DNA from: Bombella favorum
GTDB lineage: Bacteria; Pseudomonadota; Alphaproteobacteria; Acetobacterales; Acetobacteraceae
Direction: 5' to 3'
Length of the DNA: 64,000 nucleotides
Assembly: GCF_014048475.1 (NCBI RefSeq)
Contig: NZ_NWUS01000001.1
Location: 682,001 to 746,000 of the forward strand
Shown here: piece after piece, positions 57,412 to 64,000 of the stretch
How the letters are laid out: each line of letters opens with the position of its first letter
Position numbering within the stretch: position 1 is the stretch's first letter
Made by a program: the position numbers and the translations under genes
Notes under the pieces: model-generated
Seen by the model: the letters and a program-made list of their open reading frames with translations, nothing else
What the model was told of the DNA's origin: nothing
Databases searched by the model: none

Positions 57412-58116
57412 ATGGCGCAGGCAAAACTGGTATTGATGCGCCACGGGCAAAGTCTGGGGAATGAAGCCAACCTCTTTACAGGCTGGTATGATTTGGACCT
57501 TTCCCCCACGGGGCATGAAGAAGCCCGCAAAGCAGGCCGCCTGATGCGGGAGCGTGGCCTCCAATTTGATGCCGCCCATTGCTCCATGCTCCAGCGGACC
57601 ATTCACACCCTTCATCACTGTTTGGATGAGCTAGATCAGGTCTGGCTTCCAGAATATCACAGCTGGCGCCTGAATGAGCGTCACTACGGTGCCTTACAAG
57701 GGCTGAACAAAGAAGACACCATCGCCCTCTACGGGCGGGAACAGGTGCAGCAATGGCGGCGAGGCTTTGACGTCACTCCGCCAGACGTAGCCTTGGGCAG
57801 CCCTCACTATCCCGGCCATGACCCCCGCTATGCCACTCTCCCCAAGGCCGACATCCCCCGTGGGGAGAGTCTGGCCACGACTACAAAGCGTGTTCTCCCT
57901 TACTGGCAGAACACGCTACTCCCCAGCTTACAGCAGGGCCAGTCCCTGCTTGTCATTACGCATGGAACAGTCATGCGGGCCCTCATCGGCCATCTAAACG
58001 GCCTTGACCCAGACGATGCCCGGACTCTGGAAATCCCAACCGGGACGCCACTTGTTTACGAGGTTAATAGCGTTGGGATCATGCGCCGCCTCGGCTATCT
58101 GAACCCACCTAGCTGA
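57412..58116 (+). CDS. gpmA: 2,3-bisphosphoglycerate-dependent phosphoglycerate mutase
   Basis: This glycolytic enzyme interconverts 3- and 2-phosphoglycerate. The 234-residue protein has the histidine-phosphatase motif LVLMRHGQSLGNEANLFTGWYDLDLSPTGHEEARKAG, the second block SWRLNERHYGALQGLNKEDT, and the second His in LLVITHGTVMRALIGHLNG. GPxTGTP-like IPTGTPLVYE ends it. ATG 57412 follows GGGGGAAG; a few upstream in-frame codons from 57385 are probably untranslated. Confidence 0.94.
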   Translation: MAQAKLVLMRHGQSLGNEANLFTGWYDLDLSPTGHEEARKAGRLMRERGLQFDAAHCSMLQRTIHTLHHCLDELDQVWLPEYHSWRLNERHYGALQGLNKEDTIALYGREQVQQWRRGFDVTPPDVALGSPHYPGHDPRYATLPKADIPRGESLATTTKRVLPYWQNTLLPSLQQGQSLLVITHGTVMRALIGHLNGLDPDDARTLEIPTGTPLVYEVNSVGIMRRLGYLNPPS

Positions 58117-58156
58117 TCTCTCTCGAATCAGAAGCTGGGCCGGTTAGCTTCTCGCT

Positions 58157-59047
58157 CTACCCTATCTCCCGAACACATTGTGACAGCGTCCGCCCCTCTT
58201 TATTCTTCCATTCTGTCCAGCCATTGGCGGAACGCCCTAACAGAAAACTGGCTGCCGGTGATGGATTTTTAAAAACGACATCTCGTGTCAGGACCAGTCG
58301 TCCCTCATCCCACGTCAACACGCCTTCCTCAATGGCAGCCTGCCGCCTTGCAGCACAGCTCGGCGAGGACTTATCAAAGGCTGGACTAGCCTTACGGCCG
58401 TATGACCCTTTGAGAACCACCATACCTTCCTCGGTATAGTAGCCACGTCCATCAACCCCTTCTGCTTGGCAGAAAAACACCTCTGCCGCCGCCGTATCAG
58501 TCTCATCCATCACTGATGAGCCATCCGGAGAAGATTTTTTAACCATAGCCTCAAAAAGAGGATACCCAAGAGTGGTCAGCAGAACATGAATTGTTTCAAA
58601 CAGTTCACGACATTCTGCCTCCATAGCAGGGAGCGTATGAGGCAATGTACCTGTTGTTTTATTCTCCAACACATAACGACCCACTACGCTGGCCTTTTCC
58701 AAGGCTTCCGCCTCCAGGTAATAGGCTTGAGTCAACGTAATATTACCAGTCAGCGATACCGCCACGACCGCCCTATTCCAGAAGTCCTTTTTTTCGTTAT
58801 GCTCTTTCAGTCTCGTGCCCAATTTACCTGTCTGGCCGACATAAGCCTTGGGCTGCGCCGTCTGATCATCCTCTCCAAACAAAAAATAAATACCAACCTG
58901 ATTAGCTTCTGGCCGTTTCAGAAAGAGGTCCAGCTGCGCCCTTGGAATCTCGATCATACTGACAACACGAGTTGTCACCATAGCAATACGCAGGCTCTGC
59001 GGATCGCCGGAAGGTAGAAAAATCTGAATGGTCTGCGGATGTTTCAT
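58157..59047 (-). CDS. GIY-YIG nuclease-domain protein with C-terminal DUF4357
   Basis: The 296-residue protein has a GIY-YIG nuclease fold at about residues 50-120 (VGIYFLFGEDDQTAQPKAYVGQTGKLGTRLKEHNEKKDFWNRAVVA, then EAEAL for the metal Glu). The C-terminal part ends in a DUF4357-like domain (GVLTWDEGRLVLTRDVVFKNPSPAASFLLGRSANGWTEWKNKEG). This architecture is widespread in accessory genomes and of unknown function, perhaps nucleic-acid processing or defence. It stands alone here. The start is ATG 59047 or GTG 59050; the ribosome-binding site is weak. Confidence 0.82.
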   Translation of the reverse strand: MKHPQTIQIFLPSGDPQSLRIAMVTTRVVSMIEIPRAQLDLFLKRPEANQVGIYFLFGEDDQTAQPKAYVGQTGKLGTRLKEHNEKKDFWNRAVVAVSLTGNITLTQAYYLEAEALEKASVVGRYVLENKTTGTLPHTLPAMEAECRELFETIHVLLTTLGYPLFEAMVKKSSPDGSSVMDETDTAAAEVFFCQAEGVDGRGYYTEEGMVVLKGSYGRKASPAFDKSSPSCAARRQAAIEEGVLTWDEGRLVLTRDVVFKNPSPAASFLLGRSANGWTEWKNKEGRTLSQCVREIG

Positions 59048-59180
59048 CACCAGTCTGTCCTATCTCTTCAAAAAACCCTGCGAACAGGCCGCTGTTTTCC
59101 ATACCCGCTATTCACACGCTCATCCCCAGATCATCCACCATTCCATCCGCCAGAACTGTGGGTAACCCATTCACAATCCG

Positions 59181-60413
59181 TCAGCTATGACCTGCACCCT
59201 GCGTTGCTGTGATCAGACTGAACAAAGCCGTGCCACAGCACATATAGAGAATATTGCGCTTCGGCCCACCAAACGTGAGGTTCGAGCAACCAACAGGAAG
59301 GCGGATGCGACCAATCATCTGGCCATGCGGGTTATAGATAAATACACCGCACAGCCCTAGCGGTCCCCACGCCCCGCACCAAAGGTTACCCTCCACATCG
59401 GCGCGCAGTCCATCAGGGCGCATGGCCCGCCCGGCCAGTGTGAAATCCGTAAAAAGCCGCCCGTTGGTCGGGCGTCCCTGCTTCATATCAAACACATGGA
59501 TCGCATGATCAGGCAATGGCGGCTGCGAACCGGCAGCAACGCCAGAAGACGCCACATAAAGCCGAGTACCATCAGGCGAGAAGCACAGGCCATTCGGCCC
59601 CGCTACATCTTTCTGCCCCAATACAGCCTCGACCTTTCCAGTCTTTGGATCAACCCGGAAGGTATGATCCTCCTGCCGCCGTAGCCCGCCATATTGGGCC
59701 ATTAGCTCTGCGTCCAGATATGGATTAAGGTGACGCTGCGGGTTGGCTGGGCCATCCACATCGGCATGGCCTTCCACCACGCCATCCCCATAGGCGGGGT
59801 CGGTGAACCAGATACTGCCATCAGGGGCCACGACAACATCATTAGGGGAATTCAGCGTTTTCCCCCGATAACGGTCCGCCAGTACGTTCACACTGCCATC
59901 ATGCTCCCAGCGGATAACCCGGCGCATCCCATGCTCGCAGGTAATGAGCCGCCCTTCAGCATCGAATGTATTACCATTGGCATTAAAGCTCTGCCGGCGG
60001 TACAGGCTCATATGCCCCTGTGGGCCATCTTCAGGATCATACCGATACTGACAGCTTGTGATCGTATCGCTCAACAGGAGGAAACGCCCGACCGTGCACC
60101 AAGCTGGGCCTTCCAGCCAGCCGCTCCCTTGCCAGAGCTTCCGCAAGGGGGAATTGCCGTAATTTACCAGCCCGAAAGACGGGTCCAGCGGCAAAACATC
60201 CGGGTCCGGCAGATTAGCTGGTGTATCACCCACCCCCCATGTGCGGGGTGGCGATGAAATCACGCTTGGACTGGAAACGATGGATCCAAGGGCGTGCCCT
60301 ACTGCGGGAGAGGCCGCTAATCCGGCCAGCCCTCCCAACAGACCACGCCGTGTAAGGCGGGCAACAGAGGACATCCGGGACTGCGCCTCTCCGTTCTGCA
60401 CTGCTTCATCCAT
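59181..60413 (-). CDS. Gluconolactonase, SMP-30 family, Tat-exported
   Basis: This 410-residue periplasmic lactonase has a twin-arginine signal (RLTRRGLLGGLAGLAASPAVGHA). It has the SMP-30 metal-site pattern: WLEGPAWCTVGRFLLLSD, LNSPNDVVVAPDGSIWFTDPAYG, GPNGLCFSPDGTRLYVAS and MRPDGLRADVEGNLWCGAW. Periplasmic lactonases hydrolyse glucono-1,5-lactone made by membrane glucose dehydrogenase, a trait of acetic acid bacteria. AGGGAGG precedes ATG 60413. No sugar dehydrogenase is adjacent, so the substrate could be another sugar lactone. Confidence 0.88.
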   Translation of the reverse strand: MDEAVQNGEAQSRMSSVARLTRRGLLGGLAGLAASPAVGHALGSIVSSPSVISSPPRTWGVGDTPANLPDPDVLPLDPSFGLVNYGNSPLRKLWQGSGWLEGPAWCTVGRFLLLSDTITSCQYRYDPEDGPQGHMSLYRRQSFNANGNTFDAEGRLITCEHGMRRVIRWEHDGSVNVLADRYRGKTLNSPNDVVVAPDGSIWFTDPAYGDGVVEGHADVDGPANPQRHLNPYLDAELMAQYGGLRRQEDHTFRVDPKTGKVEAVLGQKDVAGPNGLCFSPDGTRLYVASSGVAAGSQPPLPDHAIHVFDMKQGRPTNGRLFTDFTLAGRAMRPDGLRADVEGNLWCGAWGPLGLCGVFIYNPHGQMIGRIRLPVGCSNLTFGGPKRNILYMCCGTALFSLITATQGAGHS

Positions 60414-60489
60414 GCCTGTACCCTCCCTAAACCTTGCTCACGCCGATCTGCCGACGGTTTACATCAAGGTAAGAGACGTAACGAGGCAA

Positions 60490-61626
60490 TCAATACCCAA
60501 AAGCAAAAACATGCTGCACGGCTACAGCATCCTTCACGCCACCGGCCAGAAGAAGCTGGAGCAACAGACGAGCCTTCTGCGGGTTCAGATCATAAGAGGC
60601 GACAAAATGATGGGCATCGTCATCCACTTCTACATCACGGTTTACAAAACCATCTCCAACACGGCTGGACCGCACAACCACCAGCCCGGCGGCAACAGCC
60701 CTATCCAACGCCTGTAAAGCCGGAGCAGATACATTGCCATCACCCATCCCAGCAATGACAATCCCTTTCACACCGGCACGAATAGCATCATCAATCTGAC
60801 GACCATCCATATCCGCATGAGCATAAATCACATCCACCGGGGGAAGGTCCGTACCAGACGGCAGCGGGAGGGACAAACGAGCCCGGGCAGGACCATAAAA
60901 TCGGACAGCAGCCGGGTCCACAATCCCTACCGGCCCCGCATTGCGGGAAACAAATGTCTGCAAGGCCGTGCTGTCAGCCTTGCTGACCCAATGTGCTGCG
61001 TGGATAGTGTCGTTCAACACCACCAACACGCCACGCCCTCTTGCCTGCGGATGTGCTGCCACCTTAACGGCCTCATAAATATTGGCGGGGCCATCCGCAC
61101 TAATGGCCGAACCGGGCCGCATGGCCCCCGTCATCACCACAGGCTGCTCATGATGCAGAACAGTATCCAAGAAAAACGCCGTTTCTTCCATCGTATCCGT
61201 ACCGTGGGTGATGACCACGGCATCGGCCTCATGCTGGGCAAAGGCTTTATTGATGCGCTCGACAAGTCGGAACCAGACCTTATGGTTCATATCCTGTGAG
61301 GGAATATTAGCAATCTGCTCTACCTGAAGGTGAGCGAGCCGCTCCACCCCCGGCACAGCGTCCACAAGCTGCTGCCCCGTTGTAGAACCAGCATCATAAC
61401 CAATGGCCGAACGAGGATCGGCTTTACCGGCAATGGTTCCACCCGTTGCCAGAACAAGCACACGAGGAAGGCGGGCCACATCCTGCCCCACATCTGCCGA
61501 AGCCGGTGCAGCAGCCATCAGCCCAGCCCCCAGCGGCAGCATCCTAACGGCAGAGCAAGCTGTTTTGACATAATGCCGGGCCCCCGTGCGGGCTTTGAGG
61601 ATGGTCAGCATACGGCGAATGGTCAT
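60490..61626 (-). CDS. L-asparaginase, exported (type II-like)
   Basis: This enzyme hydrolyses asparagine to aspartate and ammonia. The 378-residue protein has an N-terminal signal-like region (MLPLGAGLMAAAPASA) and the catalytic blocks VLATGGTIAG (Thr) and VVITHGTDTMEETAFFLD (Thr, Asp). VMTGAMRPGSAISADGPANIYEAVKVAA and IVIAGMGDGNVSAPALQAL follow. The start is ATG 61626; its long N-terminus before the signal has several Arg. It lies 16 bases after the AspT-like gene, so the two are one operon that would turn external asparagine into aspartate. Confidence 0.92.
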   Translation of the reverse strand: MTIRRMLTILKARTGARHYVKTACSAVRMLPLGAGLMAAAPASADVGQDVARLPRVLVLATGGTIAGKADPRSAIGYDAGSTTGQQLVDAVPGVERLAHLQVEQIANIPSQDMNHKVWFRLVERINKAFAQHEADAVVITHGTDTMEETAFFLDTVLHHEQPVVMTGAMRPGSAISADGPANIYEAVKVAAHPQARGRGVLVVLNDTIHAAHWVSKADSTALQTFVSRNAGPVGIVDPAAVRFYGPARARLSLPLPSGTDLPPVDVIYAHADMDGRQIDDAIRAGVKGIVIAGMGDGNVSAPALQALDRAVAAGLVVVRSSRVGDGFVNRDVEVDDDAHHFVASYDLNPQKARLLLQLLLAGGVKDAVAVQHVFAFGY

Positions 61627-61642
61627 GGGTGATGAGGCCTTT

Positions 61643-62866
61643 TTACACAAAAGCAACAATAAGTGGGCCCAGCAATGTTAGCAGCACATTGGCCAAAGCA
61701 TAGGTAATGGCAAAGGGAATGGTGGGGCTGCTATGGCCAGCCTTGGCCAGAACCTCGCCAAAAGCCGGGTTGGAACTGCGTGTCCCCGCCAGAGCTCCAG
61801 CAAAGAGAGCAACATTCCGATAGCCCAACAGAAAGCGCCCGGCAAGAGCTGTCACCACGAGCGGCACGATGGTGACGATCATGCCCAGCAGAAGAATCAT
61901 CACCCCTTGATGGGTAATAATCTCCACAACCTGCCCACCTGTCTGCAACCCTGTCACAGCGACAAACCCTGCTAGACCAAAACTGCCCCAAAGCAGGCAG
62001 ACAGAGGATGGCATTTCCCCATATGCAGGATGCCGCCCATGCCACCAGCCAAACAGCAGGCCAGACAGCAAAGCCCCGCCACCACTGCCCAGCGTGATAG
62101 AGACACCCCCTAATCGGACAACCACCAGCCCGAGCATCAACCCCAGTGCCATGCCCAGCATGTTATAAACAAGGTCCGTAGCGACAGGTAGCGCAGCTTG
62201 CCGGGATGCTTCTTCATCCTGAATAGCCGGAAGAGCATTTTCCTCTACTTCCTCCTCCGGCAATGAGCCCGCCTTCAGCGCATCATCCCGCATGTTGCGA
62301 CGCATAACGAGCGGCAGGATATTCACACAAAAAATGATAGTCCCGATAGACCCAAAAATATACGTCACAGCGTAGCCTACAGCGACATGAGCCTGCATCT
62401 GCTGCACCTGCGCCAGTGGCAAGCTCAACTTCTCCAAAGCGGAACTAGCCGTGCCGATAATGGCAGACTGTGTCAGCCCACCAGCCGCCAAACCGGCTGC
62501 CATGCCCTTATCCAGATGAAACAGCCGCCCCACTCCGACCACCGTCACAAATGCGCTGATCGCCATAATGGCAGCCAAAGCAACCTCCCTGAGAGATTGC
62601 CGCCCTAATGACCGAAAGAACCCCGGCCCGCTCCGGTAGCCTACCGCATAGATGAACAGAACAAACAGTACGGTTTTGAGGCTGGAACCAATATGCACGC
62701 CACATTGGCTAATCAGCACGGCCATCAGCAATGACCCAGCCACACCTCCGAGCTGGAACACCCCGACCTTGATACGCCCAACCCAGCAACCGAGACCAAC
62801 TGATAGGAAAAAAGCCAGCTCCGGATTTTCTGCAAAAAGATGCGACAGCCCATGATACAGAAACAT
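61643..62866 (-). CDS. AspT-like aspartate:alanine exchanger lacking RCK_C domains
   Basis: The 407-residue inner-membrane protein has two blocks of helices matching the AspT/YidE family: FFLSVGLGCWVGRIKVGVFQLGGVAGSLLMAVLI with YRSGPGFFRSL and GLTQSAIIGTASSALEKL in the first half, then GLLFGWWHGRHP, GLAGFVAVTGLQTG and GALAGTRSSNPAFGEVLAKAGHSSPTIPFAITYALANVLLTLLGPLIVAF in the second. Family members have about 550 residues with two RCK_C (TrkA-C) domains between the halves; here only a short acidic loop (about residues 195-235) remains. It precedes the asparaginase in one operon; aspartate uptake is the likely role. Confidence 0.82.
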   Translation of the reverse strand: MFLYHGLSHLFAENPELAFFLSVGLGCWVGRIKVGVFQLGGVAGSLLMAVLISQCGVHIGSSLKTVLFVLFIYAVGYRSGPGFFRSLGRQSLREVALAAIMAISAFVTVVGVGRLFHLDKGMAAGLAAGGLTQSAIIGTASSALEKLSLPLAQVQQMQAHVAVGYAVTYIFGSIGTIIFCVNILPLVMRRNMRDDALKAGSLPEEEVEENALPAIQDEEASRQAALPVATDLVYNMLGMALGLMLGLVVVRLGGVSITLGSGGGALLSGLLFGWWHGRHPAYGEMPSSVCLLWGSFGLAGFVAVTGLQTGGQVVEIITHQGVMILLLGMIVTIVPLVVTALAGRFLLGYRNVALFAGALAGTRSSNPAFGEVLAKAGHSSPTIPFAITYALANVLLTLLGPLIVAFV

Positions 62867-62896
62867 CCCGTGACCTTCTCTCCAAACAGCTTTTAA

Positions 62897-62929
62897 GAAA
62901 GCCGGACTGTTTTTCTAGTCGGGCTTTCT
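62897..62929 (-). promoter_or_regulatory. Hairpin in the leader of the AspT-like gene
   Basis: Read leftward, AGAAAGCC-C-GACT pairs with AGTC-C-GGCTTTCT with one mismatch, an 8-base loop between. It lies about 30 bases upstream of ATG 62866 and lacks a strong T run, so a leader structure is as likely as a terminator. Confidence 0.35.
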
Positions 62930-63046
62930 CCTCCATGTGCGCTACTTAATAGTTACAGAACATTTCTGCCAGAGAGTTAGAACCGTCAAGCTTACTCGGG
63001 CACACAATAAAAGAACTAGAATAGCACCAGGAAAACGCAGTCATAA

Positions 63047-63086
63047 AAAAAGCCACCACGCTCATAGAGCGATGGCGGCTTTTCTA
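63047..63086 (-). terminator. Rho-independent terminator of the 171-residue gene
   Basis: Read leftward, AAAAGCCGCCATCGCTC pairs with GAGCGTGGTGGCTTTT (one bulge), followed by T. It lies 10 bases after the stop. Confidence 0.82.
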
Positions 63087-63096
63087 CAGCCCCGCT

Positions 63097-63612
63097 TTAC
63101 TGAGCAGCTTTGAAGATTTCTTCAAGATGCTCAAGGGACACAGCTTCCCGGGTATCGGGGATGGGCTTACCTGCCTGGTCCAGCTTCTCGATCTCGTAGA
63201 CGATGAAGCCCTCATCATCATAATGAACATCAATGACGACAAAACGGTCAGAGGCTTCACCCTCGCCACGATGTTCTTCCGTCTTCACCAGCTGCTGATC
63301 CTTCGCAAAGGGAAGGTCTGCCAGCTTTTCTTCATCAATCTGGCGGACAGCATGGTTCCATTTTTCATAGGTCTCCCGAATAGCCGCATAGATCGCTGTA
63401 ATATCGGGAAACTCTTCCACATCTTCCGTGGTGGTGACATCGACCGTGGCGATGTCTGAGCCAAAATTAGCCTGCACCTGATAGGACTCAGGCGCAATAG
63501 ACTGCACAGCCTCCAGAATGCGCTCGAGGAACTCAGGCCCATACATGGATGAGTTGAAATTCAGCATCTTGGAACGATCAAGAGTAACACTGATTTTGGC
63601 AGTTGTGGCCAT
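63097..63612 (-). CDS. Conserved-looking protein of unknown function
   Basis: I do not recognise the family. The 171-residue protein is acidic and soluble-looking, with no signal or membrane helix. It has MATTAKISVTLDRSKMLNFNSSMYGPEFLERILEAVQSIAPE, a region of Asp/Glu/Thr (SDIATVDVTTTEDVEEFPDITAIYAAIRETYEKW) and DRFVVIDVHYDDEGFIVYEIEKLD near the end. The latter two look like alternating strands and helices. A strong GGAGGGGG site precedes ATG 63612, and a good terminator follows, so it is a real, separately transcribed gene. Frames further upstream to 63702 are not needed. Confidence 0.75.
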   Translation of the reverse strand: MATTAKISVTLDRSKMLNFNSSMYGPEFLERILEAVQSIAPESYQVQANFGSDIATVDVTTTEDVEEFPDITAIYAAIRETYEKWNHAVRQIDEEKLADLPFAKDQQLVKTEEHRGEGEASDRFVVIDVHYDDEGFIVYEIEKLDQAGKPIPDTREAVSLEHLEEIFKAAQ

Positions 63613-63783
63613 GGCCCCCTCCTGGATAAAAAAATTGCCAGAGCACACTCTACCAAAATAGGCCGTTTCACACAGCCCCCTTAAAGGCCAGCCCCTTTGC
63701 ACGCATCACCCCTCCCATACGAGAAAGGCCTTTTTCCCTGATGAATACTGGCAATTCCTGCCATGATTACCGAAAGTTAGCGC

Positions 63784-63805
63784 CATGTTACAAAAACGTA
63801 ACATG
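63784..63805. promoter_or_regulatory. Operator-like inverted repeat
   Basis: CATGTTAC and GTAACATG form a perfect 8-bp inverted repeat around 6 bases (AAAAAC). It lies in the divergent region between the 171-residue gene and the gene starting at 63978, which suggests a dimeric repressor site. Confidence 0.4.
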
Positions 63806-63977
63806 ACATAAATGTGCTTCCCAACAGCAAAAACACCCCTCTTATTCGCACGCCCCTTCACAACAGCCTCATAACGACCGTTCTCTCATAGTAAGTCGAT
63901 GCAAGTGAATTTTACTGTTCCGGTTTCGTTATGAATGCCCTAGTCTACCCTTCTGGAAGACAAGGAGACACTCCCTC

Positions 63978-64000
63978 ATGAGTACAGGCCAGCAAACAAC
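63978..64000 (+). CDS. First codons of a gene running off the window
   Basis: ATG 63978 is preceded by AGGAG at 63963-63967. The visible codons read M-S-T-G-Q-Q-T, which is too short to identify. The call rests on the ribosome-binding site and on the lack of other genes in the 365 bases upstream. Confidence 0.5.

Follow-up and report, generated by a model that had tools for sequence, protein, structure and literature searches.

A conserved AspT-type transporter without RCK_C domains in a reduced transporter-asparaginase operon of Bombella

Genomes of Bombella encode a lineage-specific, conserved variant of the transporter AspT that lacks the two RCK_C (TrkA_C) domains of its relatives and belongs to a reduced operon; it is not a new kind of system. 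We propose that the transporter gene and the asparaginase gene that follows it probably constitute an operon for scavenging aspartate, which would be what is left of a three-gene operon that converts asparagine to alanine in acetic acid bacteria. The locus was analyzed in a window of 64,000 nucleotides from Bombella favorum (contig NZ_NWUS01000001.1), and the coordinates below are those of this window. The features of the locus, with their basis in parentheses, were as follows:

60490..61626, minus strand: type II asparaginase, 378 aa, with a probable signal peptide at residues 1-44 (TIGR00520, alignment, hydropathy)
61627..61642, minus strand: gap of 16 bases between the transporter stop and the asparaginase start (ORF positions)
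61643..62866, minus strand: aspT-like gene for an RCK_C-less Asp-Al_Ex transporter, 407 aa (ORF, profile matches, predicted structure)
61694..62152, minus strand: C-terminal membrane half, TIGR01625, residues 239-391 (TIGR match)
62183..62269, minus strand: 29-residue linker at the site of the relatives' two TrkA_C/RCK_C domains, which comprise 184-188 residues (alignment)
62321..62815, minus strand: N-terminal membrane half, PF06826, residues 18-182 (Pfam match)
62895..62930, minus strand: hairpin immediately ahead of the ribosome-binding site of aspT (folding)

Profile searches of the 407-aa protein recovered both membrane halves, in agreement with a preliminary description that had called them intact. 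PF06826 matched two stretches at 199.4 bits (cut-off 27) and TIGR01625 matched two at 138.8 (cut-off 71.95). The protein thus carries two copies of the membrane domain above the curated cut-off, which is what characterizes the Asp-Al_Ex (AAEx) family. The same description had held that the TrkA-C pair is missing from this AspT-like exchanger. Indeed, the search of the protein returned no match to TrkA_C (PF02080), and the 562-position model TIGR03802 aligned in two pieces, 3-197 and 382-562, such that some 185 central positions, equivalent to the two TrkA_C/RCK_C domains, are missing. The score against TIGR03802, 480.8 bits, did not reach the cut-off for an aspartate-alanine antiporter equivalog, 546.95, so this model does not certify the identity of the substrate. 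The YidE-type model PRK03818 scored 102 bits, far below the AspT models.

Alignment with relatives was clean up to an RDDA-like motif before the gap and again from a TD motif after it. Among the 126 columns that are invariant in 14 full-length comparators, 103 were unchanged in all 11 Bombella copies. The site corresponding to R76 of Tetragenococcus halophilus AspT is occupied by R, E or S in Bombella and by Q in close relatives; as the position is variable, it provides no proof of substrate. A separate group of differences lies at residues 285-297 (window 61976-62014), where Bombella has C290 and W293 and the 14 full-length comparators have S and L. At residue 295, Bombella has S, N or M, and most of the full-length relatives shown have D or E. 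These changes may reflect a surface that was altered along with the loss of the RCK_C domains.

The linker that replaces the domain pair was 21-29 residues long in all 11 Bombella copies, as compared to 184-188 residues in 28 of 28 longer comparators. In the window copy, it contains 8 acidic residues and 1 basic residue, so that the short acidic loop reported earlier holds for this protein. However, the net charge ranged from -7 to -1 over the 11 copies. Acidity is therefore not a conserved property of the linker: it describes this species and not the group. In an AlphaFold2 model of the transporter based on 19 alignment rows (pLDDT 77, pTM 0.78), the linker was disordered, with pLDDT <50 at residues 201-227. 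The best structural match to this model was T. halophilus AspT (8y1x; Z 37.8, rmsd 4.2 over 397 residues), and the predicted model accordingly has the AspT fold of the Asp-Al_Ex family.

Of the 11 same-genus genomes, 10 had a short aspT gene, with the two halves joined in a single frame of 410-432 residues; G350, the remaining one, had no TIGR03802 match. The window transporter shared 98% identity with that of B. intestini and 74-92% with those of eight other Bombella-type records. TIGR03802 matched in 91 of 397 Acetobacteraceae genomes. In the other genomes listed, the frames were about 530 residues or longer wherever both halves were present; the exceptions were broken or contig-edge copies in G024, G107, G320, G336 and G386. 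A match in G237:C56 was weak and partial (412-residue frame, E 5.5e-4). Wider scans detected matches in 22 of 385 genomes of the class and 69 of 398 genomes of the phylum, two sets that overlap in their genomes; among the matches listed in these scans, the window frame was the only one shorter than 539 residues to hold both halves. Similarly, the 40 plasmid records listed, out of 107, all had at least two pieces spanning about 1.66-1.69 kb, which fits a central insert. Thus, among the matches listed in the Acetobacteraceae, class, phylum and plasmid searches, no intact relative outside Bombella has the short form. It had been suggested at the outset that full-length copies in sister species would mark the shortening as a recent deletion. 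Full-length copies were found in other genera only, and every same-genus copy seen was short. The deletion therefore goes back a long way, and Bombella has retained the gene in its shortened form. Because separate assemblies of 10 of the 11 same-genus genomes share the short form, we rejected a recent deletion or an assembly error as an explanation.

The Bombella aspT copies formed one clade in both of two trees, with support of 100/100. Loop columns were excluded from these trees, and the second tree was built without L007, L011, G066 and the distant paralogues. L007 and L011 were also omitted from the asparaginase tree, and twelve comparator rows were chosen by BLAST before trees and counts were made. 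Between the window and 8 other records, dN/dS was 0.04-0.11 for aspT and 0.025-0.075 for the asparaginase gene, with L011 left out of the calculation. The low dN/dS and the single clade indicate that the shortened gene has been maintained under purifying selection. B. apis MRM1 has two tandem RCK_C-less aspT copies, both open (L005:4614-7212; also L052). Their identities to the window copy are 73% and 86%, and dN/dS between them is 0.16.

We considered whether the RCK_C domain might be provided by a separate protein. The entire genome from which the window derives contained no TrkA_C match at E 0.001 (7 candidates scored), and such matches were present in 13 of 14 control genomes. In this genome, the domain is therefore not supplied in trans.

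The preliminary description had also placed an exported asparaginase in an operon with the transporter. Based on TIGR00520, which matched at 364.8 bits (cut-off 314.3), the gene that starts 16 bases after the transporter stop encodes a type II asparaginase. Alignment with solved L-asparaginases revealed that the motifs around the catalytic residues, which we take to be the Thr/Tyr/Thr/Asp/Lys set of type II enzymes, are kept. The N-terminus, evaluated using hydropathy only, looks like a Sec signal: residues 22-42 are hydrophobic, and ASA comes next. Gene order was identical in 9 of 9 named Bombella loci, and a single asparaginase match, adjoining aspT by position, was found in 10 of the 11 same-genus genomes. 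Together with the low dN/dS, the constant gene order sets this pattern well apart from a chance arrangement. Judging from the 16-base gap, the two genes are likely transcribed as one unit. In Bombella, the asparaginase gene is followed by a gluconolactonase-like gene. G350 lacked matches to the asparaginase and to the gluconolactonase-like neighbour, and also to the upstream gene, for which the search had no positive control. This fits either loss of the whole block or absence of this stretch from the assembly.

Upstream of aspT, all 9 of the named Bombella loci share a 171-aa protein (63097-63612, minus strand) that has no Pfam match. Besides the window, each of the nine other leaders folded (from eight records, L003-L010) had the hairpin ahead of aspT, including that of the second aspT copy in B. 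apis. Its sequence has diverged, and shuffle z-scores ranged from -0.4 to -4.1. It may be the terminator of the preceding gene or a leader element. Rfam gave no match in window positions 58000-64000. A promoter scan found 3 candidates where 2.5 were expected, which is no excess, and none on the minus strand.

The asparaginase had been described as standing in the place of an aspartate decarboxylase. The decarboxylase is indeed absent: TIGR03801 scored above its cut-off in none of the 11 same-genus genomes, as compared to 21 of the 37 chosen genomes overall. The history is different, however, because related acetic acid bacteria have an operon in which the asparaginase comes third, after aspT and the decarboxylase. 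Comparison of the loci indicates that the pairing of aspT with the asparaginase was inherited and that what Bombella lost is the middle, decarboxylase gene. In six related loci (L055, L059, L060, L061, L065 and L068), aspT is followed by a gene of about 530 aa and then by the orthologous asparaginase. The middle genes of L061 and L055 were scanned, together with genes from L057 and L062, and matched aspartate 4-decarboxylase at 757-774 bits; for the remaining four of the six, the position agrees with genome-level decarboxylase matches. The plasmid NZ_CP149626 of Acetobacter sp. AC2005 is annotated with the trio of aspT, decarboxylase and asparaginase. In Kozakia baliensis, decarboxylase and asparaginase are annotated after an aspT frame that is broken by an in-frame TAG. 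Five further annotated proteobacterial plasmids have aspT and the decarboxylase without the asparaginase, which therefore looks like an addition made in acetic acid bacteria. A Melissococcus plutonius record has neither gene annotated beside aspT. With the decarboxylase lost, the Bombella operon cannot run an energy cycle of import, decarboxylation and export of alanine.

Several of these loci have features of their own. The trio on an Acetobacter plasmid (L073:4059-11575) has an IS5 transposase gene on either side, both with one and the same protein accession, and may thus be mobile. The plasmid trio is followed by a gene for a protein of about 330 aa; weak matches to PF13557 were obtained for two genes in the corresponding position of other loci. 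Broken aspT copies comprise that of the K. baliensis plasmid (L059/L074), a split frame in L057 (G320), a copy with several stops in L058 (G336) and a split upstream paralogue in L016 (Caballeronia).

A rule that loss of the decarboxylase goes with loss of the RCK_C pair is not supported. In G061 and G066, a full-length transporter is directly followed by the asparaginase, the decarboxylase is absent and the inserts of 184 residues are kept, so loss of the decarboxylase does not require loss of the pair. The TrkA_C score in G066 was 23.1, below the cut-off of 27. G061 joined Bombella in the aspT trees (support 94/89 in one, 87/13 in another). In the asparaginase tree, it joined G136, in which the decarboxylase is present (98/97). 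G061 and G066 both form long branches. The frame of the G061 asparaginase (L054:5625-6620) begins with an N-terminus unlike a signal, and the region matched has a stop codon in its upstream part; the enzyme may now be cytosolic, or damaged. The data also do not support an aspartase in place of the decarboxylase. The top match to the aspA model was below the cut-off and scored higher as a class II fumarase (634, just missing the cut-off of 665); its gene adjoins one for malic enzyme.

In the operon as we propose it, an exported asparaginase would split asparagine in the periplasm into aspartate and ammonia, and the Asp-Al_Ex exchanger with the AspT fold would take up the aspartate by exchange. 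In the Bombella ancestor, the gene for aspartate 4-decarboxylase and the RCK_C pair in the cytosol were both lost, such that the decarboxylation-driven energy cycle no longer runs from this operon and the exchanger would work without a cytosolic sensor. Imported aspartate would supply nitrogen as well as oxaloacetate and fumarate to a cell with a broken TCA cycle. Candidates for the counter-substrate are alanine formed through transamination and C4 acids, for instance succinate or fumarate. The analyses above demonstrate the architecture, its conservation, the gene order, the losses, purifying selection and the predicted fold; we infer the substrate, the direction of transport, the export of the asparaginase and the absence of regulation. 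In the available parts of its genome description, B. intestini has no aspartate 4-decarboxylase and no alanine pathway; its TCA cycle lacks three steps, the conversion of succinate to fumarate being absent, and its aspartate aminotransferase and L-aspartate oxidase could feed the cycle (PMC5112900). The same 2016 source proposed that asparagine-derived aspartate feeds oxaloacetate and fumarate. Its further proposal, that asparagine is taken up by an L-asparagine permease, speaks against the exchanger route. The Bombella operon is plausibly a second route beside this permease, with hydrolysis outside followed by import of aspartate. Partial PEP carboxylase-like matches of about 47-53 bits were found in 14 of 14 genomes searched; oxaloacetate is thus perhaps made without imported aspartate, which makes import less likely to be essential.

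What leaves the cell in exchange may be read in more than one way. Classic exchange of external aspartate for alanine could persist, with alanine formed by transamination of pyruvate; the net effect would be to convert external aspartate and internal pyruvate into internal oxaloacetate and external alanine. That the closest solved relative is an aspartate:alanine antiporter argues for this reading, as do the comparator-invariant columns unchanged in Bombella. By contrast, the lack of an alanine pathway in B. intestini and the absence of the decarboxylase from all 11 same-genus genomes argue against it. If Bombella cannot make alanine, such exchange would be costly, and we consider it possible but somewhat doubtful. 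Alternatively, aspartate could be swapped for succinate or fumarate as a C4 dicarboxylate, which would drain the end products of a TCA cycle without succinate dehydrogenase; Dcu-type exchangers in E. coli work in this way. Consistent with this swap, the succinate exporter SucE1 is assigned to the same family in the available text of PMC9527358, B. intestini lacks the succinate-to-fumarate step and has an L-aspartate oxidase that can yield succinate (PMC5112900, available parts), and the Bombella group has changes of its own, from S to C at residue 290 and from L to W at residue 293. As AspT models nevertheless score far better than the YidE-type model, we regard the swap as rather unlikely. 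In its boldest form, AspT would now be a sensor-free exchanger with a new partner, bringing aspartate in and letting out succinate or fumarate, the dead ends of the broken TCA cycle. The cell would also have dispensed with every RCK_C sensor domain, and no other naturally RCK_C-free member of the family came up in these searches. We judge this form to be distinctly unlikely.

Two other readings concern the role of the operon as a whole. Acetic acid bacteria acidify their surroundings and type II asparaginases release ammonia, so the main role might be acid resistance, with the transporter merely removing the product of the asparaginase. Neutralization of acid by ammonia, as envisaged in the preliminary description, is possible and would apply equally to the ancestor. 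Loss of the proton-consuming decarboxylase points the opposite way, and none of the findings here ties the operon to acid; acid resistance as the main role is improbable. Finally, the shortened gene could be a decaying leftover without function, in line with the broken copies of related genomes (the split frame of G320, the stops of G336 and the TAG of K. baliensis). The open frame in all 11 aligned copies, the low dN/dS relative to the window, the conserved motifs and the tandem duplicate maintained in B. apis make decay very improbable.

As a conserved natural AspT without RCK_C domains in culturable bee symbionts, the transporter is a ready test case for RCK_C function against the full-length relatives in acetic acid bacteria. 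What the two RCK_C domains do in AspT/YidE/YbjL transporters was not described in the available text of the literature searched, and neither this operon nor an AspT free of RCK_C appeared in the portions of the open-licence papers searched. The aspartate-scavenging operon that we favour would exemplify a decarboxylation energy cycle dismantled with its import half kept, and is relevant to the nitrogen and C4-acid supply of bee symbionts.

Among known systems, AspT-AspD of T. halophilus (TC 2.A.81) shares the two Asp-Al_Ex membrane halves and their fold. In the available text of the sources, T. halophilus AspT is a dimeric protein of 543 residues that takes aspartate in and alanine out (PMC9527358), and the exchange is electrogenic (PMC9508256). 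It has the central part, whereas Bombella lacks both this part and the decarboxylase. The putative YidE/YbjL transporters of enterobacteria have the duplication domain TIGR01625 in common with the Bombella protein, but their model matches it much more weakly and their frames are at least 539 residues among the class and phylum matches listed. The sodium-citrate symporter CitS has the next-best fold (Z about 22); it is from a different family, with 11-12% identity. CitS works without an RCK_C pair. The alf-2 cluster of Lactobacillus casei similarly yields aspartate from an asparagine derivative and may feed a decarboxylase. It differs in its glycosyl-asparaginase class, its MFS permease and the presence of the decarboxylase, and no Asp-Al_Ex transporter is named for it in the available part of its description (PMC6960285). 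A further close system is the operon of aspT, decarboxylase and asparaginase in Acetobacter and Kozakia (NZ_CP149626, NZ_CP014677). Bombella differs from it in lacking the middle gene and the RCK_C domains, and in having the gluconolactonase-like gene next where that operon has the gene of about 330 aa; the orthologous transporter and asparaginase occur in the same order and on the same strand in both.
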